Shown in pieces: positions 1 through 22,905 of a stretch of 22,905 nt of DNA. The stretch lies in IMG/VR virus record IMGVR_UViG_3300035698_005957, positions 1 through 22,905 of that record; one strand, given 5' to 3'. The first letter of the stretch is position 1; every line of letters begins with the position of its first letter. Below the pieces are notes generated by a model. It was given only the letters and a program-made list of their open reading frames with translations, made no database searches and had not been told where the DNA came from. Position numbers and translations under genes: made by a program. The stretch comes from a virus.

Positions 1-87
1 AAAACCGGAGAATGCTTAAAAAATATGTCTTCTGATTCCGTAAAGGAACTCCAGGCTATACTTAATCAAGCGGGAACAAATATATAA
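1..87 (+). CDS. 3' end of an unidentified gene upstream of portal
   Basis: This is an open frame entering from the left edge, 28 codons plus a TAA stop at 85-87. Its stop overlaps the portal start codon in a TAATG arrangement, which suggests translational coupling. The visible tail is hydrophilic (it ends QAILNQAGTNI) and carries no motif. In this gene order the gene before portal is commonly the large terminase subunit or a small gene next to it, but nothing in these residues proves that. An internal ATG at 25-27 could also start a very short frame, which is less likely. Confidence 0.5.
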   Translation, partial: KTGECLKNMSSDSVKELQAILNQAGTNI

Positions 88-1835
88 TGGCACAAAGACA
101 ACGACCTTTTTTAACAGCTTTACGAAAACGCTTCCGTCCTTCCTTGGAAGATAAAATGGAAAAGATCCTAGATAAGAGAAATAAGGCTACAGAAGATGCC
201 TCTCCTACAGTAAAAATGGTAGACGCTAAAACTTCCAGCGTTAAAAGTATTTTGCAAACATTGAAATCTACAATTCTTACTGTTTTTAAAGGTGGTAACA
301 GAGGGGTATTTAAAAAGCCTGAGTGGGACTTCGCCAAAGTACAACTTGCCTTTACCAATGAATCTATATTCAGACGTTCTGTTGAGAAGTATGTAGAACA
401 AATCCGTAAACAAAAATGGGAAGTAATTGGTAATAATCCTAACACTGTTAAATATATAAGAAAACGTTTTGATCAAATGGCAACAGTCCAAAACCGTCCA
501 ATGGAATATTTATGGGATGAATTGGCTTTTAACTTGGTATTATATAATAACTGTGTTGTAATAAAAAGACGCAATAGAAAAGCTTCTGGTGGAAGAATGC
601 GTAAAACCTTTGATGGGAGTTTACGTATACCCGTAGCCGGTTACAGTGCTGTCGATGTTTCTTCTGTTAAAGTAGACAGAGATAACTATGGTAATGCTAG
701 AAAATGGAAACAGGTGATAAATGCCTCCAGTAGCATGTGGGAGAGATTTAACCCTGATACAGAAACTTCTCCTGAATGGCCCCATTACAATGTTATTCAC
801 ATTAAAGATCACACAGCCTCACCTACACAATATTTCTTCGCTATGCCTATGTCAATCCCTGTGATTGCCGACATGGAAGCCTTGCGTGAGCTGGAAGAAC
901 TTTCTTTGATAGAATCTGTTAAAATAGCTGTTCCAAAATTGCACGCTAAAGTAGGTTCTAAAGATGTTCCTGGCACACAGGACCAAGTTGATGATCTAGC
1001 CGGGACTATCCGCACCTTAGCTGGGGATGGAATTCTTGTTACAACAGAACGTGTAGAAATAAAAGATATAACATCTTCTTCTTCTTCAGCAAACACCGTA
1101 CTTACCTCGGCTGTAGATTACTTCCGAGCTAGAGTTCTTGCCGGTCTCGGCATGTCAGGCGTAGCTATGGGTGATGGTGATTCAGCCAATCGCTCCACAG
1201 CACAAGTTATAAGCGCCGAGATGCAGAGCACCTCTGCTAAGTTCCAACGTACACTTAAGTCTGCTATTGAATTCTATATCATTAGAGAACTATTGTACGA
1301 ATTAGGACACACTGAAAGTACTCTTGATGATGCTAATATGGTTTACTTATCAATCCCAGAAATCGATTTAACTGAAAAAATAAAAAGAGAAGCTCATTAC
1401 CTTAACCTTTATACCACTAATGGTATAGTTGAGAATGAGCTAAGAAAAGAACTAGGTAGAGATATTCTTTCAGACGCTGAAAGAGCAGGTCTTTATCTTA
1501 ACAATATTCAGATCCCTCTCGCCAAAGCAGAGGCCGAAGCCTCAGCCTCAGCATCTGCTAAACTTAATGAAAATAATGCTAGACCAGCCAATCAACATGG
1601 AAAACAATTAGCTAAACCTAAAATAGCTAAAGATGAATATATGAAGATTTGGGATAAATGTCTAGTGACATCAACGCATTTAGAGCTATTCGACACACTT
1701 AGCGGGTCTAAGTTAGAGCCGTATGACATAACTCTAATGAAGACACTACTGTTAGAGGCCCTAAGAGGTAACTCAATTCAAGATGCAGTTGGAGCAACAT
1801 TCACTGCTATGGAGTCTAACATAACCAAGGAGTAA
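87..1835 (+). CDS. Portal protein
   Basis: A 582-residue protein judged to be the portal, the dodecameric ring at the capsid vertex through which DNA is packaged and to which the tail attaches. Support is the size, the position just before a prohead protease, scaffold and capsid gene, and portal-like content. This includes a basic N-terminus, the segment FRRSVEKYVEQIRKQKWEV (about 94-112) resembling the start of portal core folds, a stem/wing-like middle, and a helical GLGMSGVAMGDGDSANRSTA region (about 353-372) typical of the helix preceding the crown. A Ser/Ala-rich stretch (SASASASA, about 486-493) marks a flexible C-terminal linker, followed by PKIAKDE at 511-517, a motif echoed in neighbouring head proteins. 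The start overlaps the upstream stop and only a weak GGGA lies upstream, so initiation is probably coupled. The family call rests on pattern and context, not on a search. Confidence 0.88.
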   Translation: MAQRQRPFLTALRKRFRPSLEDKMEKILDKRNKATEDASPTVKMVDAKTSSVKSILQTLKSTILTVFKGGNRGVFKKPEWDFAKVQLAFTNESIFRRSVEKYVEQIRKQKWEVIGNNPNTVKYIRKRFDQMATVQNRPMEYLWDELAFNLVLYNNCVVIKRRNRKASGGRMRKTFDGSLRIPVAGYSAVDVSSVKVDRDNYGNARKWKQVINASSSMWERFNPDTETSPEWPHYNVIHIKDHTASPTQYFFAMPMSIPVIADMEALRELEELSLIESVKIAVPKLHAKVGSKDVPGTQDQVDDLAGTIRTLAGDGILVTTERVEIKDITSSSSSANTVLTSAVDYFRARVLAGLGMSGVAMGDGDSANRSTAQVISAEMQSTSAKFQRTLKSAIEFYIIRELLYELGHTESTLDDANMVYLSIPEIDLTEKIKREAHYLNLYTTNGIVENELRKELGRDILSDAERAGLYLNNIQIPLAKAEAEASASASAKLNENNARPANQHGKQLAKPKIAKDEYMKIWDKCLVTSTHLELFDTLSGSKLEPYDITLMKTLLLEALRGNSIQDAVGATFTAMESNITKE

Positions 1836-4487: not shown

Positions 4488-4534
4488 GAGAATTAAACAA
4501 TGGCTAACAAAATTAATTTTAGCGCAAACGGTGC
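4486..4534 (+). repeat. Direct repeat: ribosome site and start of head paralog A
   Basis: Forty-nine bases from AGGAG through the first 12 codons match 5555-5603 at 44 positions. This shows a tandem gene duplication that included the ribosome site. The rest of the genes has diverged but still aligns at protein level. Confidence 0.8.
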
Positions 4535-5555
4535 CCCAACACGCAGACTAAAGGTAGCACCTACAAAATTTCAATTATCCCCAGGACGCCCTAACATCAG
4601 TATGTCTGATGGTGTACGCCCTGCTTTCCCACTAATGCCCTACAGGCATTTGCCAGAAAGTTTCATGGATATAAACACACAAGACTGGGTCGTAATCCCT
4701 AAAGGTAGAATCGTATCTGCGATTACATCTAATGATGGCGATCTAGGTGACGGCCTCGAATACTTCGGCGTACCAAAAGGTATTATGGGACTTATTGTTC
4801 CTGCTAATGGTGGCGCTGCTCGTACAGTCACTTCACCAGTCCTTGGTGCAGGCGACAAAGTAATTCCTGCTAACTTCCCTATCGGAGTTGCAGAACATGA
4901 CGTATATCAAGATATGCGCGGAGAAAACTTAAATTATGATATGCGTTCTAAGAACTACGGTGTTCTTGCTCGTCAACTGATCAAACTACCTTCTGTTGAT
5001 GTTGGTGCTTTGGATACATTCCTTGGTGGAACAGACTTGTTCTGTGATACAAGTGAAGGTGCTCCAGTAGCTACTGGACTAGGCGTAACCCACGCTTACT
5101 TCGCAGTTGAACCAAAATACTCATGGCTGACTATTGAAGCGGCCGCTGATGGTGTTTCTGGTACAATGTTGAAATCAGATTTTTATGGTAACTATATGCC
5201 TGGAACTACAGCGAACCAAGTAGTTGGACGTTTACTAGGGGTTGATTACCGCTTTAACAAAGATATGTTGGATACTGTACAATCTGTATATGAAGAAACT
5301 GCTTCTTATCGCGTTTCCGGTACAGGTACTATGGGTATCCCTCAGTTCTTATATGACTATGCTTACGCTGCTCTCTCACAAGCACTTATTAAAGCAACTA
5401 CAAGTTGGGCGGCTGCTACTGCATCTGATTCAGTTATTGTTGTTGTTGTTGGTGGAGAAGACGTTGCTATGGCAAGTAAAGATCCTGCAGAAATCGTAGC
5501 CCTCGCTATATCAGAAGGTGCATTCGGCGAAGCTTGGATTCAAATAAATATTTAA
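4500..5555 (+). CDS. Virion structural protein, head paralog A (capsid decoration candidate)
   Basis: A 351-residue protein strongly similar throughout to the next gene. Shared blocks include the start MANKIN, GAPTR, LSPGRPNIS, DMRGENLNYDMR, QLIKLP, GRLLGVDYRF, KDMLDTVQS and the C-terminus GEAWIQ. Location between scaffold and major capsid suggests a head protein, perhaps decoration, minor capsid or vertex, but I do not recognise the family. The second half is more variable. This copy lacks the large beta-rich insert of its partner and instead has a short Val-rich stretch (DSVIVVVVGGED, about 309-320) encoded by GTT repeats. A strong AGGAG site lies 9 bases before the ATG. This leader is itself duplicated ahead of the second gene, so the duplication included the ribosome site. 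Confidence 0.7.
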   Translation: MANKINFSANGAPTRRLKVAPTKFQLSPGRPNISMSDGVRPAFPLMPYRHLPESFMDINTQDWVVIPKGRIVSAITSNDGDLGDGLEYFGVPKGIMGLIVPANGGAARTVTSPVLGAGDKVIPANFPIGVAEHDVYQDMRGENLNYDMRSKNYGVLARQLIKLPSVDVGALDTFLGGTDLFCDTSEGAPVATGLGVTHAYFAVEPKYSWLTIEAAADGVSGTMLKSDFYGNYMPGTTANQVVGRLLGVDYRFNKDMLDTVQSVYEETASYRVSGTGTMGIPQFLYDYAYAALSQALIKATTSWAAATASDSVIVVVVGGEDVAMASKDPAEIVALAISEGAFGEAWIQINI

Positions 5556-5603
5556 GGAGAATTAGACAATGGCTAATAAAATTAACTTTACAGCAAACGG
5601 TGC
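5555..5603 (+). repeat. Direct repeat: ribosome site and start of head paralog B
   Basis: Partner of 4486-4534, with AGGAG at 5555-5559 and ATG at 5569. Spacing between the two copies is 1069 bases. The low divergence around the start may reflect selection on translation signals or local gene conversion. Confidence 0.8.
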
Positions 5604-7134
5604 GCCTACACGGACACTAAAAGCTGCCCCTGCAAGATATCGTTTATCTCCGGGCAGACCTAACATCAGTCAATCTGATGGTATCCGTCCAGCGTTTCCT
5701 TTGCTACCTTTTAAACATCTGCCAACCGCTTTCCAAGATATTAGTACTGAAGATTACGTTGTAATCCCTAAGGGCCGTCTTATTTCGGCTATTACCTCTA
5801 ACGATGACCCTGCTAGTGTCATCGGTGATGGTAATGATTACTACGGAGTTGCCAGAGGTATCATGGGACTTATGGTTCCGGCGAACGGCGGGGTTGCAAG
5901 AGTTGTAACTTCTCCTGTCACGGATGCTGGTGATTTCACTATCCCGGCTAATAAACCAGTTGGCGTAACTGAACACGACGTATTTCAAGACATGCGTGGT
6001 GAGAATTTAAACTATGATATGCGTAATAAAAATTACGGTATTTTAAGTCGTCAACTTATTAAACTTCCTGCTATTGACGTCGCTACTTTTAGTGAAATGG
6101 TAGGAGATGCTGATTGTTTTCTTCCTGGTGATGCAGAAGCCGCTGGCACAGCCGGTGAACATGTACACACAATCACAACTGCTGAAGTATTTGCTGAAGT
6201 AGAAACAGAATATGTTTATACTGTTGGTGCGGGTATTACAGCTCCGGTAGAGATTCCTCTAGCTACTATGATCGACGCTCTTACACTTACACATGATAAT
6301 TACATTTTCACCGTTACCGGTGCTACTGTACTTGTTGGTGGAGTTGGAGAAGTTATAACAGCTTCTTATGCCGCTGAAGTGCTAACGCTAACGTCGAATG
6401 CTGCTTATACTGAAGGTATGACGGTTACAGTTACTTACCAGTACATCAACGCACAACTTGAGATCCCTGTTGCTACTATGGTCTCAGATGAAGCTCTTGC
6501 TGCTGAACAATATAGCTATGTAGTTACTGCTGAAACAGTAACTTCTGGTGCAGAAGTTGTTACAGCTACTTACGCTGATGCAGTTCTAACTCTCGTAACT
6601 GATACTGTCTTTACTGACGAGGCAACGATCACAGTTGCTTATGTATATACTGACTTAAACTCAGATGTTGCTGCTCCTGTTACTAATGCTGATCTTGTCA
6701 CAGACAGTTATGCATATGCTACAGTAGAAGCAGAATACTCATTCTTTACTTTTAATGGTGAAAACGCTACTGTGGAAGCAGTATCCGGAAAACTATTGAA
6801 ACCAGATTATTATGGCAACTTCATGCCTCACTCTAGCTACGATGAACAAACAGTTGGTCGTCTGCTTGGTGTTGACTACAGATTCGGAAAGGATATGTTA
6901 GACACTGTACAGAGTAAATATGAAGAAACTGCTGGCTACAGAGTAGCTGGTACTGGCACCAAGGGCGTGCCACAATTCTTGTTTAATTTTGCATATGATG
7001 CAATTACGGCAGCTCTCGTGAAGGGCGGAACCACATGGGAAGCTAAATGGCCAAGTGTTGATCCCTCTGCCAAAATCTTAGAATTTTGTGAAGGTGGAGC
7101 AATTGGAGAAGCCTGGATCCAGCTCAACGTATAA
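5569..7134 (+). CDS. Virion structural protein, head paralog B with doubled beta-rich insert
   Basis: A 521-residue paralog of the preceding gene. The N-terminal ~185 and C-terminal ~130 residues align with it, for example DMRGENLNYDMR at 141-152 and LLGVDYRF near the C-terminal third. The extra length is an insert of about 190-387, rich in Thr, Val, Ala and Tyr. It contains two tandem units of ~70 residues, 228-297 and 298-367. They open EIPLATM and EIPVATM, each carries a VxTA(S/T)YA-VLTL core, and each ends in TVTVTYQYIN or TITVAYVYTD. The units look like immunoglobulin-like or similar beta-sandwich domains, which are often surface-exposed on capsids. A third partial echo begins near 368. 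A head surface or decoration role is inferred. Start: AGGAG 9 bases upstream. Confidence 0.72.
   Translation: MANKINFTANGAPTRTLKAAPARYRLSPGRPNISQSDGIRPAFPLLPFKHLPTAFQDISTEDYVVIPKGRLISAITSNDDPASVIGDGNDYYGVARGIMGLMVPANGGVARVVTSPVTDAGDFTIPANKPVGVTEHDVFQDMRGENLNYDMRNKNYGILSRQLIKLPAIDVATFSEMVGDADCFLPGDAEAAGTAGEHVHTITTAEVFAEVETEYVYTVGAGITAPVEIPLATMIDALTLTHDNYIFTVTGATVLVGGVGEVITASYAAEVLTLTSNAAYTEGMTVTVTYQYINAQLEIPVATMVSDEALAAEQYSYVVTAETVTSGAEVVTATYADAVLTLVTDTVFTDEATITVAYVYTDLNSDVAAPVTNADLVTDSYAYATVEAEYSFFTFNGENATVEAVSGKLLKPDYYGNFMPHSSYDEQTVGRLLGVDYRFGKDMLDTVQSKYEETAGYRVAGTGTKGVPQFLFNFAYDAITAALVKGGTTWEAKWPSVDPSAKILEFCEGGAIGEAWIQLNV
6250..6669 (+). repeat. Tandem ~210-base coding repeat inside head paralog B
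   Basis: Two consecutive 70-codon units (6250-6459, 6460-6669) encode similar beta-rich domains, beginning EIPLATM and EIPVATM, with matching YAAEVLTLT / YADAVLTLV cores and VTVTYQY / ITVAYVY ends. The similarity is clear in protein and weaker in DNA. Confidence 0.75.
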
Positions 7135-7226: not shown

Positions 7227-8588
7227 ATGAAAGTGAAAACTCAAACAGTAAAGCAGGCTCAAGCACAAAAATTTATCTATGACATCTTCACTAACAACGG
7301 TGTTGTTGGTTTTGAAGATAAAGATAAAGGCGCGATGAGCCTACAATTCGATTTTAAAGATGTCTTTAGAATTGAAGAAGAAATGAAAAATGAAAACATT
7401 GCAGAATTTGCTGATGTTTTCTTCACAGAAGACTTAACTCGCTTCATTGGTACAACTGTTACTTCTTTAGTACAGGAAGCCATTGAACCCGAACTCTTAG
7501 TAGTTCCTAATTTGTTCAAACAAATTAATTACGAAGGCCCCGGCCGTACTGTAGAGATCGGTTCTGTAGGTGCATTTCATGCAGCTGAAGTTCCTGAAGG
7601 TCAGGAATTCCCAGAGGCTGATATGTCTTATGGAGAGGGCAACATTGTCCAACTTGGAATCGCTAAACACGGTCTTAAGTTACGCATAACATCAGAAGTT
7701 ATCGATGATAATCTTTTTGATGTATTCGGAATGTGGCTAAGAATGGCAGGTCGAGCACTTGCACGTCACAAAGAAGAATATGGTATTGCTCTTTTAAATG
7801 ACATGGGTCAAACAATCTACGATAATGCCGGTGGCACAAGTGCTATTGGTTACACTAAAGGACGCGGAATTGACGGCAAATTTAATGGTTCTATGACTAT
7901 TAATGATGTTTTCGAAATGTGGGCTTATGGTTACCTTCGTGGTTTTAATTATGACACACTCTTAATGAATCCTCTAGCATGGAAGACATTCATGAATGAT
8001 CCTAAAATGCGTGAGATTCTGTTCTCAAATGGCGTTATTGCTAGCAACCGTTTACCTAATGGTTCAGGCGCAAGCACATTCGGAACAAGTTTTGGTGGAA
8101 AAGGATACGTTAATGATCCTACCGGTATTTCAAATCAAAGTGCAGGCGTTGCCGGTCCTAATCCGTTTGTACAAACTCTTAACCCATTAGGCGCAAGCTT
8201 CAACATTGCTCCTAAATACCTCCCATCTCCTCTTAAAGTTATTGTTTCACCTCACGTTAAGTACGGCTCAGGCACTACTGACTCAGGTTCAGCAGACAGT
8301 AATATTACTACGGACAGTGCTGTATACGTTACAGACATCATCATGGCTGATTCACAAAACGCTGGTCTATTAATGACTAAAGAAGGCGTTACTACTGATG
8401 AATGGAAAGATCCAGAAGTGGAAATCCATGCTATGAAGATCAAAGAACGTTGGGGTATGGCTTTACTTGCACAAGGTAAAGGTGTTGGAATTGCACGTGA
8501 CGTTGTAATCAAAGACAACTACGTTTTTGATAACGTTAATAGCGTGTCAATTACTGGTGAAAAACCAGCTATAGCTCCAGTTGACTAA
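7227..8588 (+). CDS. Major capsid protein, HK97 fold
   Basis: A 453-residue protein with the features of an HK97-fold major capsid subunit. A charged N-terminal arm of about 60-70 residues may be the delta/scaffolding segment removed by the protease. A Gly/Pro/Glu-rich loop (about 104-137, with GPGRTVEIG and VPEGQEFPEAD) fits an E-loop. A long helix around 161-195 (FGMWLRMAGRALARHKEE) fits the spine helix. The P/A-domain region includes MNPLAWKTFMND. It sits downstream of portal, protease and scaffold genes and has its own strong terminator directly after, as expected for the most abundant head protein. GGAG lies about 10 bases before the ATG. The 92-base leader upstream holds no convincing promoter. 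Confidence 0.88.
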   Translation: MKVKTQTVKQAQAQKFIYDIFTNNGVVGFEDKDKGAMSLQFDFKDVFRIEEEMKNENIAEFADVFFTEDLTRFIGTTVTSLVQEAIEPELLVVPNLFKQINYEGPGRTVEIGSVGAFHAAEVPEGQEFPEADMSYGEGNIVQLGIAKHGLKLRITSEVIDDNLFDVFGMWLRMAGRALARHKEEYGIALLNDMGQTIYDNAGGTSAIGYTKGRGIDGKFNGSMTINDVFEMWAYGYLRGFNYDTLLMNPLAWKTFMNDPKMREILFSNGVIASNRLPNGSGASTFGTSFGGKGYVNDPTGISNQSAGVAGPNPFVQTLNPLGASFNIAPKYLPSPLKVIVSPHVKYGSGTTDSGSADSNITTDSAVYVTDIIMADSQNAGLLMTKEGVTTDEWKDPEVEIHAMKIKERWGMALLAQGKGVGIARDVVIKDNYVFDNVNSVSITGEKPAIAPVD

Positions 8589-12058: not shown

Positions 12059-14449
12059 ATGGCAACACCAAAAGTAACTAGAACTTTATATGATAACAAC
12101 CTGGATAGATCAGTCCCTCAAGGACCCACTAATAGAAGAGTGGTAATCCTAGGAACAGCTTCTGATGGCCCAATGTACGAACCTCTTTTAGTAAACTCGC
12201 CTGCCAATGCCGAAGACCTCTTTGGTAGCTTTGGCTCCGGAACACTTGTCCGCGGTTTAAAAGAATGTATTAATGCACAAGCCAGCAGTACTGCTAGTCC
12301 TGACACGTGGGGAATGAGAATCGGTGACACCAATGCACAGCGTGCCTCTGCATCACTTGTTGATGGAGACGGAGCTGAGGTAATGCAGGTTGAATCAATT
12401 TATAAAGCGGACCTTTACAACCAAGTAACTATTAAGAAAGATGCTGATGCTTTGGGCAACCAGTGGATTTATGTCTACAATCCAAAAACAGGCCTTTCTT
12501 CAAAATTCGATTCAGCTCTTGACGCTGACGAATTAGCTTCTGCTATCAATGCAGACCCAAACACGAAAGACATGCTATTTGCTGTATCAGCTACAGCAGG
12601 TAACGCAGAAAATTTAGAACTTACAGCGGCTGCTGGAAGTTATGACGCTACTGCTGATGTACTCATAGTTGATGTACAGACTGACGCCGCTGGAGCTACT
12701 GCTTCATGGCCCGTAGCAGAAATTAGTAAAGTATATACAGTCGGTGCTTCAGAGTTAAAAACTCTTGAAGGATCTACCGTTCTTGCTGTCGATGCCGGCA
12801 CTTCTATTGCAGAAGCTCCTGCCTCTATTGGTAATGATACTCAGCCAGATTACGCTCCTATTATGTTAGAGGATAACATCAATGACTCTACTAAGAAAAA
12901 CTATGTGTACTACACAGGGACAATAGAAGCAGACTTTGACGCTTTAGCAGATGGGCTTACTTTTGACGAAGATTTTGATCTAGGAGCTGACATCCTTGGA
13001 GCTGCTGATGTTAATATTGCTGGTACAGTAACTGTTACCGATAAATCTGGAGTAGTTGGTCCATTAGAACTAGCCGCTCATCTTCTTATTGTTGATACTG
13101 ATGTGGCAACCTTTTCTTTAGATACTGATTTATCTATTTTTGATGGTAAAAATATTACTGTCTCTGTAGAATTTACAACCGTTGCTAACCCAAAACTTCT
13201 AACTAATATTGGAATGGCAACTGTCCCTACGACAGAATTCCAGTACAGATTATCTACTTCTGCAAACCTAGCTTTGACTTTTGGAGCTATTCCAACGTAT
13301 ACGATGAATCTTCGTTACGCACAGAAAGTTCAGTATGAGTCACCTAATGGTTACTCAGAAAGCTCTGGTATTGTTACTGTTAGTACTTCATATCTTACTG
13401 CTATTGCTAAAGCAATCATTGGTATGGAATACTTCTACTCAGCCGGTACCCCTGTATGGACAAGCACTTACCAATTAAGTGCAGGACGCGATGGTATCCT
13501 AATGACAAATGCTCAGCTTAAAGCTGATCTTGTTTCTGCTTACGAGCACTTCCATTATGACTTCTTTGACATCATGTGTGTTACAGATCTTACAGTGGAC
13601 GCTCTTTTAGCTGATGGATCTTCTGCCGGTTTTGCAGAACAAATGTCTGCTTTCTTAGATACCTTTAATGGCGAGATGCTCGCAGTTATTGGTTATGAAC
13701 CCCTTGTTGGAAGTGGTATTGGTGGACGTATCGAACGTCTTGCTGATATCTCTCACTCAAGTACAGGAAGAGTTTCTCAGCTAACGCAAGAAGGTCTTTC
13801 TGGATATAACGATGCGAACGCCGGAACAATCCTTCCAAGCATAAATCAACCATTTATGTTTGCTCCCGATCTCGAACCTATTTTCTCAAGCAATGGTGTT
13901 CGTTACTCAGCTATCAGTACTTCAGCCGTAGCCGGTTTGATTGCTGTTATGCCGACAGAAGAGGCTATCTACAGACATCCTCTTAGTGGGGCTCTGGGAC
14001 TTCGCTACCGCTATACAGAAAAAGATCAAGCTAGTGGAGAACGTCAAGTTGATGTTCTCGCTAATGCACGTATCCCTGTTGGTACAATCGATAGTGGTGC
14101 GGTTAAATTAACTGATTCCAAGACACTTGCTGCTCCTGGATCAGACTTTGAAAATCTAATGACTGTTTTGATACTACAGGAAACTTTGGATATTTGTCGT
14201 GAGGTCGCTAAAGACTTCAAAGGGTTAGTTACAAGTAACGCTCTGCTTCAGGCTATGCAAAGTGCAATGGATAAAAAACTTGGTGATGCGCTAGTTCCTC
14301 GTGTTCTTCGCGGATTCAAGGCACCTATCCTTCTAACTCCTGGTGAAAGAGTAGTTGGAAAACTTACTATTCCTCTTACTCTAAGTCCTCAGTTCGAACT
14401 TAGGGATGTACACTTCAATCTGCAGTTAACAGCTGACGATCTTGTTTAA
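12059..14449 (+). CDS. Contractile tail sheath protein
   Basis: A 796-residue tail sheath, the subunit that forms the contractile outer layer of the tail. The N-terminus has the typical linker, then an RRVVILGTASDGP segment (about 25-37) and LFGSFGSGTLVRGLKECINA (about 59-78). The C-terminal third has the conserved sheath domain: YRHPLSGALGLRYRYTEKD, RIPVGTIDSGAV, a helix-rich LQETLDICREVAKDFKG, and the closing KLTIPLTLSPQFELRDVHFN. It is longer than the ~660 residues of T4 gp18. The excess appears as an acidic, Ala/Thr-rich beta region between about 110 and 440, which may be surface-exposed domains. The GGAG site lies 9 bases before the ATG. Adjacent tube and connector genes support the call. 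Confidence 0.92.
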   Translation: MATPKVTRTLYDNNLDRSVPQGPTNRRVVILGTASDGPMYEPLLVNSPANAEDLFGSFGSGTLVRGLKECINAQASSTASPDTWGMRIGDTNAQRASASLVDGDGAEVMQVESIYKADLYNQVTIKKDADALGNQWIYVYNPKTGLSSKFDSALDADELASAINADPNTKDMLFAVSATAGNAENLELTAAAGSYDATADVLIVDVQTDAAGATASWPVAEISKVYTVGASELKTLEGSTVLAVDAGTSIAEAPASIGNDTQPDYAPIMLEDNINDSTKKNYVYYTGTIEADFDALADGLTFDEDFDLGADILGAADVNIAGTVTVTDKSGVVGPLELAAHLLIVDTDVATFSLDTDLSIFDGKNITVSVEFTTVANPKLLTNIGMATVPTTEFQYRLSTSANLALTFGAIPTYTMNLRYAQKVQYESPNGYSESSGIVTVSTSYLTAIAKAIIGMEYFYSAGTPVWTSTYQLSAGRDGILMTNAQLKADLVSAYEHFHYDFFDIMCVTDLTVDALLADGSSAGFAEQMSAFLDTFNGEMLAVIGYEPLVGSGIGGRIERLADISHSSTGRVSQLTQEGLSGYNDANAGTILPSINQPFMFAPDLEPIFSSNGVRYSAISTSAVAGLIAVMPTEEAIYRHPLSGALGLRYRYTEKDQASGERQVDVLANARIPVGTIDSGAVKLTDSKTLAAPGSDFENLMTVLILQETLDICREVAKDFKGLVTSNALLQAMQSAMDKKLGDALVPRVLRGFKAPILLTPGERVVGKLTIPLTLSPQFELRDVHFNLQLTADDLV

Positions 14450-17378: not shown

Positions 17379-17750
17379 ATGGCAAATGAAAAAGTAGAAG
17401 GTCTGGATATGGAAAATTACCCAGTAGGTAAGATGGGTCCATCTCAGACGGAAATCGATGAACTTAAAAAAACCCACAACAAAGTGAAAGCTTGCTTTAT
17501 TGGAAATGAAGTATACCTTGTTCGCATGATGCACAGGGAAGAATATATGGCGTTTCAAGAAGAGGTTAACGACCAGGTTAATGCAGGAAATGTCAACTTT
17601 GATGTTGATAGCGTTATTGCTGAACGAAATACCGTATGGCCGGAAAAAGTTGAATGGGCAGTAGCTCCAGGTGGAGTGGCAACAATCCTCGCCACAGAAG
17701 TTACTAAGTTCTCTGGATTCGTTCCAGACAAAGAAAGTGTTGAACTATAA
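17379..17750 (+). CDS. Tail assembly chaperone 1 (candidate)
   Basis: A 123-residue protein immediately before a second similar gene and a giant tape-measure-like gene, the standard place of the two tail assembly chaperones that coat the tape measure during tail growth. The core reads KVKACFIGNEVYLVRMMHREEY (about 35-56), matching the 'x-V-Y-x-R-x-x-x-x-E-Y' block also seen in the next gene as HAIIYRTLTAFE. Its tail WPEKVEWAVAPGGVATILATEVTKFSGF fits the family, with W-P then a helix ending Ser-Gly-Phe. AAGGAG sits 10 bases before the ATG. A strong terminator follows its stop. No in-frame slippery site leads into the next gene. Confidence 0.65.
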   Translation: MANEKVEGLDMENYPVGKMGPSQTEIDELKKTHNKVKACFIGNEVYLVRMMHREEYMAFQEEVNDQVNAGNVNFDVDSVIAERNTVWPEKVEWAVAPGGVATILATEVTKFSGFVPDKESVEL

Positions 17751-17798: not shown

Positions 17799-17822
17799 AT
17801 AAATGACATATCTTTAATATGG
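17798..17822 (+). promoter_or_regulatory. Intergenic TGACATA motif, copy 3
   Basis: TGACATATCT then TTAATATG, the same string as copy 2 apart from a 2-base insertion, placed just after the terminator. Its final ATG is the start codon of the next gene, which has no ribosome site, so a transcript starting here would be nearly leaderless. Confidence 0.4.
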
Positions 17823-18379
17823 AAAAACTATTAAAATGGAAAGCTGAGCAGGGTTCTGTCTATCAAATAAAGTTAGAAGGACATGCTATTATTTACAGAA
17901 CATTAACAGCCTTTGAAATCCAAGCACTCATGGAATTGAAAGAGAAAAACTCAAAGAATCTAGAACAAGCAGTTTGTTCTTTGGCAGTCATCTCCCACGA
18001 TCCTCTTCCTGTGTTTGAACTTCCAGGAACTCTCTTTAGTTTATCGTCTGCTATCTGGGAAAAGTCTGCTCCACAAGATCAACAATTGGAAGAGAAAGTA
18101 GAGGAGCTCCGTGCATGGGCAACCACGGCCATAGAAACGAATTTTAGCATAGCTCTCGCTACCCTAATAGCACGTGTCATGCCCTCTATCGACTTTACAG
18201 CTCTTTTAAATATGCCTTTAGGCCAACTGCTGAAGATCGCCGCTTTGGTAGAAAAAGTAACTAACATCCCAGTTATGACTGGGGAAGAGTCGGCGAACGG
18301 CACTTCCTTTACAGGAGCAGAGAAAGATCAATCTTCAATAGTACTTACTGATGCTATTAACAACTTAGTTAAAAAATAA
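17819..18379 (+). CDS. Tail assembly chaperone 2 (candidate)
   Basis: A 186-residue protein just before the tape-measure-like gene. An N-terminal QIKLEGHAIIYRTLTAFEIQALMEL (about 16-40) has the 'I-Y-R-x-L-T-x-x-E' block typical of tail assembly chaperones, shared in weaker form with the preceding gene. The central part (LPGTLFSLSSAIWEKSA) and a helical C-terminal half, followed by a Ser/Gly tail, agree with the family. No Shine-Dalgarno sequence precedes the ATG at 17819. An ATG at 17834 is the only near alternative and also lacks one. The gene is cut off from its partner by a terminator rather than joined by ribosomal frameshifting. Confidence 0.68.
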   Translation: MEKLLKWKAEQGSVYQIKLEGHAIIYRTLTAFEIQALMELKEKNSKNLEQAVCSLAVISHDPLPVFELPGTLFSLSSAIWEKSAPQDQQLEEKVEELRAWATTAIETNFSIALATLIARVMPSIDFTALLNMPLGQLLKIAALVEKVTNIPVMTGEESANGTSFTGAEKDQSSIVLTDAINNLVKK

Positions 18380-18383
18380 ATAA

Positions 18384-21300
18384 ATGCCTAAATACGACGA
18401 ACAGATAAATCCGCAAGAACCCAGTGGGAGTGCTGCAAAGAAGTCCTTAGGACAGATGGCACTTACTATGGGTTTCTTCCTTGGTGGGCAACTTCTCGCC
18501 TCTGCTGGATATGCTGCTGGAAAAAATGCTTTTCTAAAGAGTATTACTAAGTCTGCAGGAGCCAGTGTAGCTTTGAAAAAAGCCGCTTCCTATGCGACTA
18601 AACGCGGATCTCTTACTGCTCTTATCTCTAAGGTAGCTAAGCCCAATTCTTGGGCACAGACTCTTGCCACAAAAATAGACTTACGTTCTACTGACGCAGT
18701 TGCTATGGGTATTAGGTCTACTATGAAAGAAGGTGGAATGCATACCTTCCAACAGCTTAAACATCTTAAGGCTCTCCCATTAGACCAAAAAATTGATTTC
18801 GGAAAACAAAGTCTTGCTGCCTACGCAAAAAGATCTGCAGTTCTTTTCCCTACGGTTTATGCGATGGAACAGGCTATCGGTGTCTCCGGCCCGGGACCGG
18901 AAGAACAGAAGAAACCTAAATGGTGGAATCTTCCTGGTCATGCAATTGGGATGATCAAGTATGTTCCTACTTACCTAATGCAAGATGCAATAGGTGCTGT
19001 AGGAATGAAAGCTGTCCCAGGTCTTGGTTCTATGATTCCCGATAAAATGCTTGAACATCTCCCTAAGGGCTTTGGAGATAATATAACAAAAGGCATAAAG
19101 TATTCCCAAGGAGGCGAATATCTTAAAACTAAACTGGGAGAGAAGACTCTAGGGTATCGTTTAGCTAACCTCCGTGCCGGGAAAGACTCCTTTGCTGAAG
19201 CTATCGTTAATAGACAAAAAATGTATGTTTCATCCAAGCATACCGCTTCCCGTTATAAAAAAACTGGTAACTCCTTTCGTACAATGCGTGAATCAATCTA
19301 CGCAGACTATAAGAAAAATCTACCAATAAAACGTACCAGAAGAATGGAGTTACAAGCCGAAAGACTAGCAGCAACAGATAGTTCAACCTTAGTAGCCGCT
19401 AGACGAGGTATAGACGATGTTTTAGGTCTTACTGATGAAGCTTCGGGAAGCTCCTCTGAGCTCACTAATATATATGAAAAAGGAAGACATTACTCAGAAG
19501 ATACTACTAAACGAATAACCAACGCACTTACAAAACAAGATAAGTTACCTTTCTTGGCAAAGATCCTTAATCTTCGTCGTGCAAAAGCTAGTGACTTCGG
19601 ACAAAGAGAACTCTTTGATGATGTCTATAAAAACGCAACTAAGATAGCTAAAAGCAAAGGGTATAAGGAAGCCTTTGAAGGTATTTCTACTCCAGAAGAA
19701 TTTGCAGAGAAGTTGCTAACAAGAAAAACATTTATAAATGATAATACCGGCTCCCTTATAGACTTGGGGGCTTTTAGTCCTAAGCATTTATTAAACAAGG
19801 CCGTTAGATCACCGTTGGCAGTGCTAGGTAACAGATTCTCCGTAGCTGATCTTTTCCCATTCAAAGCTATGACTGCTCCAGAAATGTCAAGAATTATACC
19901 TATAGAAGACAACATAGCAATGCACTCTTCTATAAGAACAGAGAACCCCATCACGCCTTTCCAGGTGCTCGTAACTAGAAAAGGCGTGCCAGACGTAATG
20001 GCTAAGTATGGTAATATTCATCACATGGAAGAAGCCGGAATGGCACTTGCTACACGACGAGCAGGTAGTAAAAATTATAATATTTATAATTATAATCCCG
20101 CTCAGAAAGATGGTGGTTGGACAAAGATAGGAAGTCAAGGAAAGATCAGGTTAAACTCCGACTCAGCTAAGATGAGTAATGAGGTTAATAAGAGTCTAGT
20201 CAAGTCTTCAACAGATGGTAATATAAAACCAGTACTTGATGTTAGTACTAATCCTGCTATTGCGTGGGTACAAAGAAATTTAAGTATTCTTGATGGTACT
20301 GGGTCATCCACAAGTCTCTTTGGTAAAGTAAGAGCATTTTTGCCAGAATCTTTTAACAGGCTCCTTTCTCCAAATGGGGGAGGTATGTATAGACATAGCA
20401 GAATCTCTTCTACTATCAAACAATTAAAGAACATTGAAGGCGTTCATGCAAACAACTTAAAAGACTTAAAGAGAGATGCCAGGGGTGTTGCCATGAAAGG
20501 AAAGAGGGAACTGGATACTTTCCTTGGTAAGAGCAAGAACATGTCGAAGCTTTTTAACTTCCTAGAGGACCAAGGTGCAATTACCCGTGGTATAAAATCT
20601 GGAGAAGAAGTAGACGCAACTATGCTTCTCGATGCTACTCAACAACTTTTGAAAAGTGAAAGTGTTAGAACAGCAGACGGTCAGCTACTCTCTGCAAGGG
20701 ACACAAGAAATGTCAGCAATATCGTTAAGTCTAGTAAAATAGGTGGTCACTTAGTCGAGGATAGTCTCTCTCCTCATGACGCCGGCCAGCTTAGAAGCTT
20801 CATGTATGACTTCGCACAGGCCCAGACGCCAGCAGAGGGTTTGGACGACATTGGTGCAATCTTCAGAAAGAGCTTAAAAGAAGATTTCAAAGCCGGAAGA
20901 ATATCAGAAAGGCAAGCCAATAAAGTAGAATTTAGCTTGTTCTATGGCAAGCTTAGAGAATCTCTAAAAGGGATTGACGAAGTCACGGCTTTCAAAAAGA
21001 CGGTACAAGATGAACTTTCCCGAGACTCTGTGACAGGTAGGGGATCTGTTTTAACGACGTATTCTGACAACTTAAGATGGTATGAAAATACATTAAGTGT
21101 TGAGTCTGTACATCATAGTGATCACATCACTGCTCTTGCTAGAAACCTCACAGAAACCAATCCTTTTACTATTTACCCAAGCAAAGTTACCGGCTTACTT
21201 GGAGTCGCGGGCACATGGACTATGGCCACAGCTAATAGACTTATTAGTTCCTCTGGACTTGGCTGGGATACTGCACTGCATACTACCCCAGGCGAAGTTG

Positions 21301-22905
21301 GTAAACTATGGGGTAAAAGATTAGGGGCTTTCGCCGGTCTCTCTGTTGGCTATAATTTATTGGATACTGTAGCAGACACCTCAGGACTATTTGATTGGAG
21401 CATGTTCGATGAAGGTATTACTGTTGGACTAGCCGACCAAGCAGTAAAAGCAAGAATGGCGTCTGGCTGGGTATATGATAAACTTGGTGTTGATAATGCA
21501 GCAAGATATATGGAAGGATTAATGCCTGGATCTTCTAAAGTAATTCCTGGTGCTATAGCAGGTTTCGCTCTTGGTGGATTGCCTGGAGCAGCTATCGGTG
21601 CTGTCGCTAACGCATACATGCAACCACAAATGGAAGAAGGGGTGCTTGGTTTCTTATCTGCAGTTCCCGGACTTAACTTCCTAGTATCAGATCCTACTCT
21701 AGATTTTGAAGAACTTCAAAATATTTATGAAGGACAGCAGATGCGTCCGGTACGTAAGGGTAAAGGATGGACTTTAGGTATTAGCCCAATAGCTGGTGGT
21801 AGAGTAGAAAGGTATGAACCCGGTTGGTACCCTCGTTTAAAAGCACAGAGTAAAGCTAGTCCTGTTCTTTATGGATCAAAAATAGAACAATTCCTAGCTA
21901 AGGATGCCCCGTTTATAGATTTCTCTTTAATGGATATAATCAATCCACAGTATTTAGAAGATAAGCATAAGAGCGATCGTCCTTATCCTATTTCATCCAC
22001 ACCATTCTCTGAAGTTCCTGTGGCTGGTCCCTTATTAGGTGCTACAGCTGGACAATTGTACAATGCCATACATCCCCTAGGAAGCAATACTTCTATTAAT
22101 AAAGATGCCGCAATGAAAGCATATGGGGCTGGTACTACTACTAACTGGAGAGGGGAATCTATGGGAACCTATGGACCGCAATACGGCGGGTTTTTAGGTA
22201 AATATAATCAACAAAACTCGCTTCCAGGTAATGACGGTAATAAATACTCAGTAATGTCACCACATTCCTTGAAACCTCTCATAGGTGAACAAGTTTATAA
22301 AGGTTTTATTGAACCGGCAGGTCTTCCTGGCTTTATTACTTCTGCTCTCGCTTGGGGAGGGGATGAACCTTTTACCCATATACCTGTTGCAGAGTCAGCC
22401 AATGCTATGGACTCTCTTGCAAGATCTTACTGGGATTCCAACTTAGGAGATTTAGCTGGAACCACCGAGCTTCTTCGTAGAGCGATACCCAGACCTAGAA
22501 GTAGTTATGATAAAGTAAACCCCATACAAAATAGTATGCCATCATGGATGCCACAAGATTTTCAAACAGGTGATCCTTATTGTCTCTTACCCAACACATT
22601 AGTAGAAACATCTGAAGGTCTACTACGCGCGGATATGGTAGAAAAAGGCATTCTTCTGAAAACGCTTAATGGCCAGTACTATCCCGTAGAAAAAGTATCC
22701 ACAAGACCAGTGAACGAAGATATCTTTGCAATTACAATCAATGGTTTAGAGGACTTCCCTTTAAAAACCACTGGTGGACACCCCTTCTACATAAACGGTG
22801 AATGGGAACTTGCTAAATACCTTATACCAGGAGATAGAACAACTTATCCTTTGTTTGATGTGACATTCCCAACACTGTTACAAGTAGGGAATAGCCCCTC
22901 AGTTG
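18384..22905 (+). CDS. Tape-measure-like giant tail protein, intein-containing, 3' end outside window
   Basis: An uninterrupted frame of at least 1507 codons, starting four bases after the previous stop and running off the window. No ribosome site is visible at ATG 18384, so coupling with the chaperone gene is likely. Being the giant gene after two chaperones makes it the tape measure candidate, which sets tail length and is released through the tail. Consistent features are a Gly/Ala-rich N-terminal hydrophobic stretch (LTMGFFLGGQLLASAGYAAG, about 23-42) and long Lys/Arg-rich helical regions. Three further hydrophobic Gly-rich segments occur near 935-960, 981-1000 and 1053-1079, the last beginning VIPGAIAGFALGGLPG. 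At residue 1400 an intein/Hint domain begins, directly after the segment SMPSWMPQDFQTGDPY. A large virion enzyme or other internal protein is the alternative. Confidence 0.75.
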   Translation, partial: MPKYDEQINPQEPSGSAAKKSLGQMALTMGFFLGGQLLASAGYAAGKNAFLKSITKSAGASVALKKAASYATKRGSLTALISKVAKPNSWAQTLATKIDLRSTDAVAMGIRSTMKEGGMHTFQQLKHLKALPLDQKIDFGKQSLAAYAKRSAVLFPTVYAMEQAIGVSGPGPEEQKKPKWWNLPGHAIGMIKYVPTYLMQDAIGAVGMKAVPGLGSMIPDKMLEHLPKGFGDNITKGIKYSQGGEYLKTKLGEKTLGYRLANLRAGKDSFAEAIVNRQKMYVSSKHTASRYKKTGNSFRTMRESIYADYKKNLPIKRTRRMELQAERLAATDSSTLVAARRGIDDVLGLTDEASGSSSELTNIYEKGRHYSEDTTKRITNALTKQDKLPFLAKILNLRRAKASDFGQRELFDDVYKNATKIAKSKGYKEAFEGISTPEEFAEKLLTRKTFINDNTGSLIDLGAFSPKHLLNKAVRSPLAVLGNRFSVADLFPFKAMTAPEMSRIIPIEDNIAMHSSIRTENPITPFQVLVTRKGVPDVMAKYGNIHHMEEAGMALATRRAGSKNYNIYNYNPAQKDGGWTKIGSQGKIRLNSDSAKMSNEVNKSLVKSSTDGNIKPVLDVSTNPAIAWVQRNLSILDGTGSSTSLFGKVRAFLPESFNRLLSPNGGGMYRHSRISSTIKQLKNIEGVHANNLKDLKRDARGVAMKGKRELDTFLGKSKNMSKLFNFLEDQGAITRGIKSGEEVDATMLLDATQQLLKSESVRTADGQLLSARDTRNVSNIVKSSKIGGHLVEDSLSPHDAGQLRSFMYDFAQAQTPAEGLDDIGAIFRKSLKEDFKAGRISERQANKVEFSLFYGKLRESLKGIDEVTAFKKTVQDELSRDSVTGRGSVLTTYSDNLRWYENTLSVESVHHSDHITALARNLTETNPFTIYPSKVTGLLGVAGTWTMATANRLISSSGLGWDTALHTTPGEVGKLWGKRLGAFAGLSVGYNLLDTVADTSGLFDWSMFDEGITVGLADQAVKARMASGWVYDKLGVDNAARYMEGLMPGSSKVIPGAIAGFALGGLPGAAIGAVANAYMQPQMEEGVLGFLSAVPGLNFLVSDPTLDFEELQNIYEGQQMRPVRKGKGWTLGISPIAGGRVERYEPGWYPRLKAQSKASPVLYGSKIEQFLAKDAPFIDFSLMDIINPQYLEDKHKSDRPYPISSTPFSEVPVAGPLLGATAGQLYNAIHPLGSNTSINKDAAMKAYGAGTTTNWRGESMGTYGPQYGGFLGKYNQQNSLPGNDGNKYSVMSPHSLKPLIGEQVYKGFIEPAGLPGFITSALAWGGDEPFTHIPVAESANAMDSLARSYWDSNLGDLAGTTELLRRAIPRPRSSYDKVNPIQNSMPSWMPQDFQTGDPYCLLPNTLVETSEGLLRADMVEKGILLKTLNGQYYPVEKVSTRPVNEDIFAITINGLEDFPLKTTGGHPFYINGEWELAKYLIPGDRTTYPLFDVTFPTLLQVGNSPSV
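22581..22905 (+). other. Intein (Hint domain) N-terminal part, truncated by window end
   Basis: From Cys1400 of the tape-measure-like protein the sequence reads CLLPNTLVETSEGLL, a canonical intein block A (Cys1, then T-L-V-x-T-x-x-G). It continues with a VEKGILLKTLNG turn and YPVEKV strand. Block B is TTGGHPFYING, with the T-x-x-H motif (T1463, H1466), 66 residues after Cys1, as in known inteins. AKYLIPGD matches the following strand-and-turn of the Hint fold. A Hint domain excises itself and joins the flanking exteins if C-terminal blocks F and G are present. These, and any homing endonuclease, lie beyond the window. A non-splicing Hint domain cannot be excluded. Confidence 0.85.

Follow-up and report, generated by a model that had tools for sequence, protein, structure and literature searches.

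Inteins are known mostly from replication, packaging and nucleotide enzymes. An open frame at the end of a viral contig raises the question of whether such an element can also reside in a giant virion protein and, if so, whether it splices, cleaves or has decayed. The DNA analyzed here, referred to as the window, comprises an entire IMG/VR record (22,905 bases) and is probably a phage fragment. A preliminary description had placed an intein in a tape-measure-like virion protein and left it between splicing and cleavage. Comparison with relatives makes it very probable that positions 22581-22904 encode the N-terminal third of a canonical cis-splicing Cys1 intein, inserted after Tyr1399 of a jumbo-phage virion protein of the gp145 family, with the precursor, excision and descent proposed below.

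The open frame and its visible Hint part

The window carries the head-and-tail genes of a contractile-tailed phage (Table 1). Downstream of the sheath gene lie tube-type genes, two small genes and then a frame (18384..22904+) of 1507 codons that is still open where the contig ends; a 41-nt exact-match scan for a contig overlapping the window end found none. Elsewhere in the block, two adjoining paralogous genes (4500-5555 and 5569-7134), whose first 283 residues share 53% identity and of which the second has an internal insert, directly precede the major capsid gene.

Table 1 Features of the window (positions of the whole stretch)
Feature	Position	Strand	Basis
Portal	87-1835		phrog_9232, E 1e-33
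Major capsid	7227-8588		Pfam Phage_capsid_4, E 6e-17
Sheath	12059-14449		phrog_16991, E 2e-27
Small ORF, tail-chaperonin position	17379..17750	+	Position relative to ME3_33/34 and 0305phi8-36 orf143/144; without profile hit
Second small ORF, tail-chaperonin position	17819..18379	+	Position likewise; weak phrog_29362 match, E 0.012
N-extein, 1399 residues, putative giant virion structural protein of the 0305phi8-36 gp145 family	18384..22580	+	tblastn; ME3_35 annotation
Conserved motif NPIQNSMPSWMPQDFQTGDPY, ending exactly at the insertion site	22518..22580	+	Aligned in ~45 homologs
Intein, N-terminal 108 residues, cut by contig end	22581..22904	+	Alignments; HMM and solved-structure matches
Block A with nucleophile Cys1 (Cys1400 of the ORF)	22581..22622	+	Cys1 invariant in 11/11 inteins at the site
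Block B, TGGH (T-x-x-H)	22770..22781	+	His invariant in 11/11 inteins at the site

The intein signature reported for this frame is present exactly as described: the codon of Cys1400 (22581-22583) opens block A (CLLPNTLVETSEGL), and block B (KTTGGHPFYI) places its His (22779-22781) 66 residues past Cys1. Taken alone, the window matches general intein models weakly; the NCBIfam intein N-terminal model did not match the window fragment and reached only E 0.05 with the L019 intein, and the only Pfam match of the window protein is a weak one to PT-HINT (pretoxin Hint; E 0.058, below cut-off). The protein also matches phrog_36001 across the insertion junction (E 6e-4). Three relatives have complete inteins at this very codon, and over 97 columns the visible part is 58-67% identical to the N-terminal parts of these inteins, so the Hint match is more than chance.

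Among phage records, those most similar to the Hint part are Erwinia phage genes annotated as cytosine methylases. Reading them as the same gene was dropped because they lie in annotated methylase genes, away from structural genes. The closest named-phage sequences, in Yoloswag, Y3 and relatives, reach ~30% identity and sit in a different extein, annotated as cytosine methyltransferase (DNA methylase). Hint-like regions similar to that of the window occur in large annotated cytosine methylase genes at L005 11737-13845, L006 7737-9866 and L007 5731-8874, and the cytosine methylase genes of the Erwinia phages and of Pseudomonas phage Lana are probably intein-bearing, unannotated as such.

Assignment of the interrupted gene

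Searching phage records with the window protein (tblastn) matched only four, from KLEB27-3 (Bacillus), ME3 (Acinetobacter, listed twice) and MTATph1 (Moorella), at gp031, ME3_35 and CDS0026, respectively. In all three phages the homologous gene comes after sheath, tube and chaperonin-position genes, as in the window. Used as a lone query against IMG/VR, the window protein gave no matches, and an alignment of the exteins was needed instead. ME3_35 is annotated as a homologue of the 0305phi8-36 virion protein YP_001429636, with the chaperonin as ...634 and the hub as ...638; because the hub of 0305phi8-36 is gp147 (PMC2147016), numbering of neighbours identifies YP_001429636 as gp145. The ME3 annotation and synteny together assign the window gene to the 0305phi8-36 gp145 family. 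That a virion protein gene lies behind chaperone genes is borne out by the chaperonin-position ORFs and by homologs annotated as structural, which would place the window protein in the virion. 0305phi8-36 gp145, ME3_35, KLEB27-3 gp031+gp033 and MTATph1 CDS0026 share the extein family and gene position of the window; ME3 and MTATph1 are without intein, and in KLEB27-3 the same motif is interrupted by a probable group I intron.

The tape-measure label fared less well. In 0305phi8-36 the tape measure was assigned to orf146, mainly from tail length, and a single gene separates it from the chaperonin genes (PMC2147016). Synteny and annotation put the interrupted gene in the gp145 family, one gene upstream of orf146, so "tape measure" is not its best label; it was dropped as the leading assignment, the lineage annotation giving that role to the next gene. 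That the extein is nonetheless the tape measure protein is unlikely. Its location behind the chaperonin-position genes, its great length (~2,100 residues when spliced) and its glycine-rich hydrophobic segments speak for this reading, and the next gene is enzyme-like in some relatives (exonuclease, RNA polymerase-like motif), which weakens the claim of that gene; the orf146 assignment, the gp145 annotation of the homologous ME3_35 and the nuclease domain found inside the protein in the window's clade speak against it.

An RNA-polymerase-like A-D-[YF]-D-G-D motif occurs in the gene that follows the intein-bearing gene, at the position assigned to the tape measure: at L002 24286-31590 (KLEB27-3 gp034; Pfam Rpb1 domain 2, E 0.015, sub-threshold), near 13995 in L045 and near 13638 in L030. 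A DnaQ-like exonuclease domain (RNase_T, E 5e-5) is found in the MTATph1 gene at this position, and the product of this gene may be a virion enzyme rather than a simple tape measure.

Complete inteins at the same codon and the joined nuclease domain

An alignment search retrieved L009, L010 and L011, whose best segments are 76, 63 and 68% identical to the window, respectively, and whose N-exteins are 36-46% identical to that of the window. Each contains a complete intein of 307-311 aa at the window's codon (L009/L019, L010/L020 and L011/L021), past which the extein continues in frame. These three close relatives share the layout GDPY + C...(307-311 aa)...VHN + SKIA.GELLLPG. The 307-aa intein (GDPY-CLHPETLVET...VHN) is followed by SKIAHGELLLPG (listed for L009), the 308-aa intein (GDPY-C...VHN) by SKIARGELLLPG (listed for L010) and the 311-aa intein (GDPY-C...VHN) by SKIANGELLLPG (listed for L011). 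Homologs empty at the site (n = 34) read GDPY-x-K...GE.RLPG, and the C-extein aligns to them without gap; exact excision of the intein restores this intein-free form. HN precedes S/T in 10/10 complete inteins at the site, and S/T occupies the corresponding +1 position in 16/34 empty homologs (Fisher p 0.003, without correction for common ancestry). A search with the intein alignment recovered only the three known relatives, suggesting that this lineage is not widespread at that sensitivity.

Profile and structure comparisons point the same way. A profile of 11 inteins at the site matches solved inteins, including the DnaX mini-intein (7cfv, E 8e-7) and PI-PkoII (2cw7, E 4e-6). The AlphaFold2 model of the L019 intein (mean pLDDT 87.6) has a predicted Hint fold, with the homing-endonuclease inteins TliVMA (E 4e-11), PI-SceI and PI-PfuI as its nearest PDB folds by Foldseek; the same intein matches Pfam Intein_splicing at E 4e-5, below the curated cut-off. 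Cys1, blocks A and B, the orthologs and these matches uphold the identification as an intein, and what the preliminary description sought beyond the contig end (an HN followed by C/S/T, an endonuclease remnant and the rest of the extein) is found in the orthologs at the same codon. By its relatives, the intein end, endonuclease state and C-extein of the window would match those of the orthologs. In the proposed mechanism, a decayed LAGLIDADG endonuclease region would follow in the precursor, and beyond it the C-terminal HN and then Ser; the intein would excise itself and ligate the N-terminal virion portion to a C-terminal one starting with a Cas4/RecB-like PD-(D/E)XK nuclease.

The concern that the Hint domain might cleave is largely answered toward splicing. 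Because every complete intein ends with HN before S/T/C and has an intact C-extein, splicing rather than terminal cleavage is the likely outcome, and efficient splicing in the cell would be expected from these sequences. Processing of the virion protein by a bacterial intein-like, cleaving Hint domain is highly improbable: PT-HINT is the sole Pfam match of the window protein and cleavage would part the N-terminal portion from the nuclease domain, but the complete copies all keep Cys1, HN and +1 Ser/Thr, with a conserved C-extein that aligns gap-free to homologs empty at the site. The orthologs lack the architecture of the bacterial intein-like/pretoxin Hint class, in which Hint is terminal and neither the +1 residue nor a C-extein is conserved. 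It is extremely improbable that the intein is degenerate, or the frame broken, just beyond the contig end (a pseudogene or assembly end artefact), for although the record ends inside the element, the catalytic residues visible in the window are all intact and the splicing half is constrained like the extein in 8/8 complete relatives.

In the window's clade and sister rows, the C-extein (~700 residues in the orthologs) starts with ~250 residues matching Cas4/RecB-type PD-(D/E)XK nucleases. For the orthologs, profile searches gave phrog_1706 (E 1e-14) and Cas4-family 4ic1 (E 7e-5), and Foldseek gave 4ic1 (E 3e-7) and lambda exonuclease. Residues H64, D96, E111, K113, Q133 and Y137, forming the motif H...D...(E)xK...QxxxY, are invariant in 12/12 homologs. 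Splicing would join the virion part to a nuclease domain with its active-site residues kept, and relatives suggest the same for the window. The Cas4-like domain was not seen in 0305phi8-36 gp145, ME3_35, KLEB27-3 gp031+gp033 or MTATph1 CDS0026. In MTATph1, KLEB27-3 and relatives, the place after the motif that the Cas4-like nuclease takes in the window's clade is occupied by a staphylococcal nuclease-like stretch (L004 11377-17226, about residues 1425-1530, and the C-exteins of L013 and L014; recognized by eye, no Pfam hit).

Further into the C-extein, unrelated inserted domains of ~160 to >500 residues occur in L027 (7516, 7999), L029 (7447, 8164) and L036 (7096, 8707, 9970), each flanked by copies of an NPxAxGxGxDxGFGSPWxG-like motif; L019 and L021, without insert, have a single copy. 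The arrangement resembles a slot for cargo whose linker is repeated and may be cleavable. Large inserts of L027, L029 and L036 close to L030 position 1807-1841 were considered as inteins and rejected, being without Cys/HN boundaries; the extra 169 residues of L059 were judged an extein domain and not an intein.

Endonuclease loss and invasion of the gene family

In a tree of the family (a quick search with SH-aLRT support only, the window row filling 43% of columns), the window falls inside a nine-row clade (L019, L020, L021, L025, L027, L029, L036, L038 and the window; SH-aLRT 100), and the intein is present in 9/9. The LAGLIDADG acids are missing in 8/8 complete copies of this clade and present in L037 and L040, which have an intein at the same site; in the near relatives of those two, L033/L034 and L031, the site is empty, as expected of a mobile element. 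None of the eight complete copies of the clade reads as a homing intein with an active endonuclease. Across 28 pairs of complete copies, the splicing part has a mean identity of 0.49 vs 0.53 for the upstream extein (r 0.85), and the former endonuclease region a mean identity of 0.22. This pattern argues for vertical inheritance with selection on splicing only. Having once homed into the conserved GDPY motif, the element would have become endonuclease-deficient at or close to the ancestor of the window's clade; from then on it would have passed down vertically, its splicing preserved by the need for the extein.

Around 170 residues of dead endonuclease are still retained in the complete copies. 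It is conceivable, if quite unlikely, that the endonuclease-dead intein has been kept in all sampled clade members as useful, splicing being a timed step that would join a packaged nuclease to its virion carrier only under conditions right for assembly, so that the nuclease would be held unassembled or inactive in the infected cell.

Across the family, ~45 non-redundant homologs were mapped against intein-free members. The family holds 23 complete inteins in 14 genes at 11 sites (L030 coordinates 1104, 1106, 1168, 1178, 1290, 1333, 1372, 1384, 1672, 1681 and 1936), that of the window being 1372; all 23 start with Cys1 and end with HN before S/T/C, and several match Pfam intein-splicing and LAGLIDADG models. 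Single genes bear up to four (four each in L037 and L040, three in L025). These counts are lower bounds, not frequencies, as pattern scans supplied the loci and contig ends truncate several of them. Two probable group I introns add to them, each in a split frame and each scoring below the RF00028 gathering score of 50: one in L057 (39.7 bits, E 3e-8), whose internal ORF shows LAGLIDADG-like motifs by eye, and one in KLEB27-3 (19.6 bits, E 0.03), whose internal ORF gp032 looks HNH-like by eye. Relative to the insertion point in the window, the KLEB27-3 intron sits about a dozen residues upstream, with NPIRNQMPDW on one side and the ...FQHGDPF motif on the other, and the L012 intein 12 residues downstream; the three elements fall within ~25 residues of one motif. 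By these alignments, the family appears invaded by inteins or introns at at least 13 different places (11 intein and two probable intron sites). KLEB27-3 gp031, gp032 and gp033 (L002 21131-22229), annotated as three genes, look like one intron-split virion gene, and the start annotated for gp033 falls inside the second exon.

A close parallel is the haloarchaeal MCM gene, with four intein insertion sites (PMC10643990). Both systems have clustered sites in conserved parts, sporadic occupancy, LAGLIDADG endonucleases and dependence on the +1 residue. MCM is a replicative helicase with four sites, whereas 11 intein sites and two probable group I intron sites were found here in a phage virion protein, one intein site being fixed with a dead endonuclease. 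Among phages, cluster C1 mycobacteriophages are recorded as having inteins in the portal protein (PMC5050341). The mycobacteriophage inteins, including those in portal and terminase genes, likewise count one virion protein among their exteins; they differ in gene, phage lineage and intein, and their exteins are mostly terminases and nucleic-acid enzymes. The SPbeta ribonucleotide reductase and the IBB_35 terminase are each targeted by both intein and intron (PMC3322345); unlike there, intein and intron occur here in different family members, at closest about a dozen residues apart, and were not seen side by side in a single gene. Our literature search, with subscription papers largely outside its coverage, found no paper on inteins in the gp145-family virion gene, nor any structural phage gene with so many intein sites.

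The view that an intein in a structural gene is unusual stands for this host gene and for the density of its invasion, and yields to the mycobacteriophage portal precedent (PMC5050341) as a general statement; the intein mechanism itself is ordinary. The giant virion gene family emerges as a dense target of inteins and introns, whose genes are easily mis-annotated, as with the intron-split gene of KLEB27-3. An intein fixed in a clade with a dead endonuclease would also make the test of "decay versus domestication" practical in phages.
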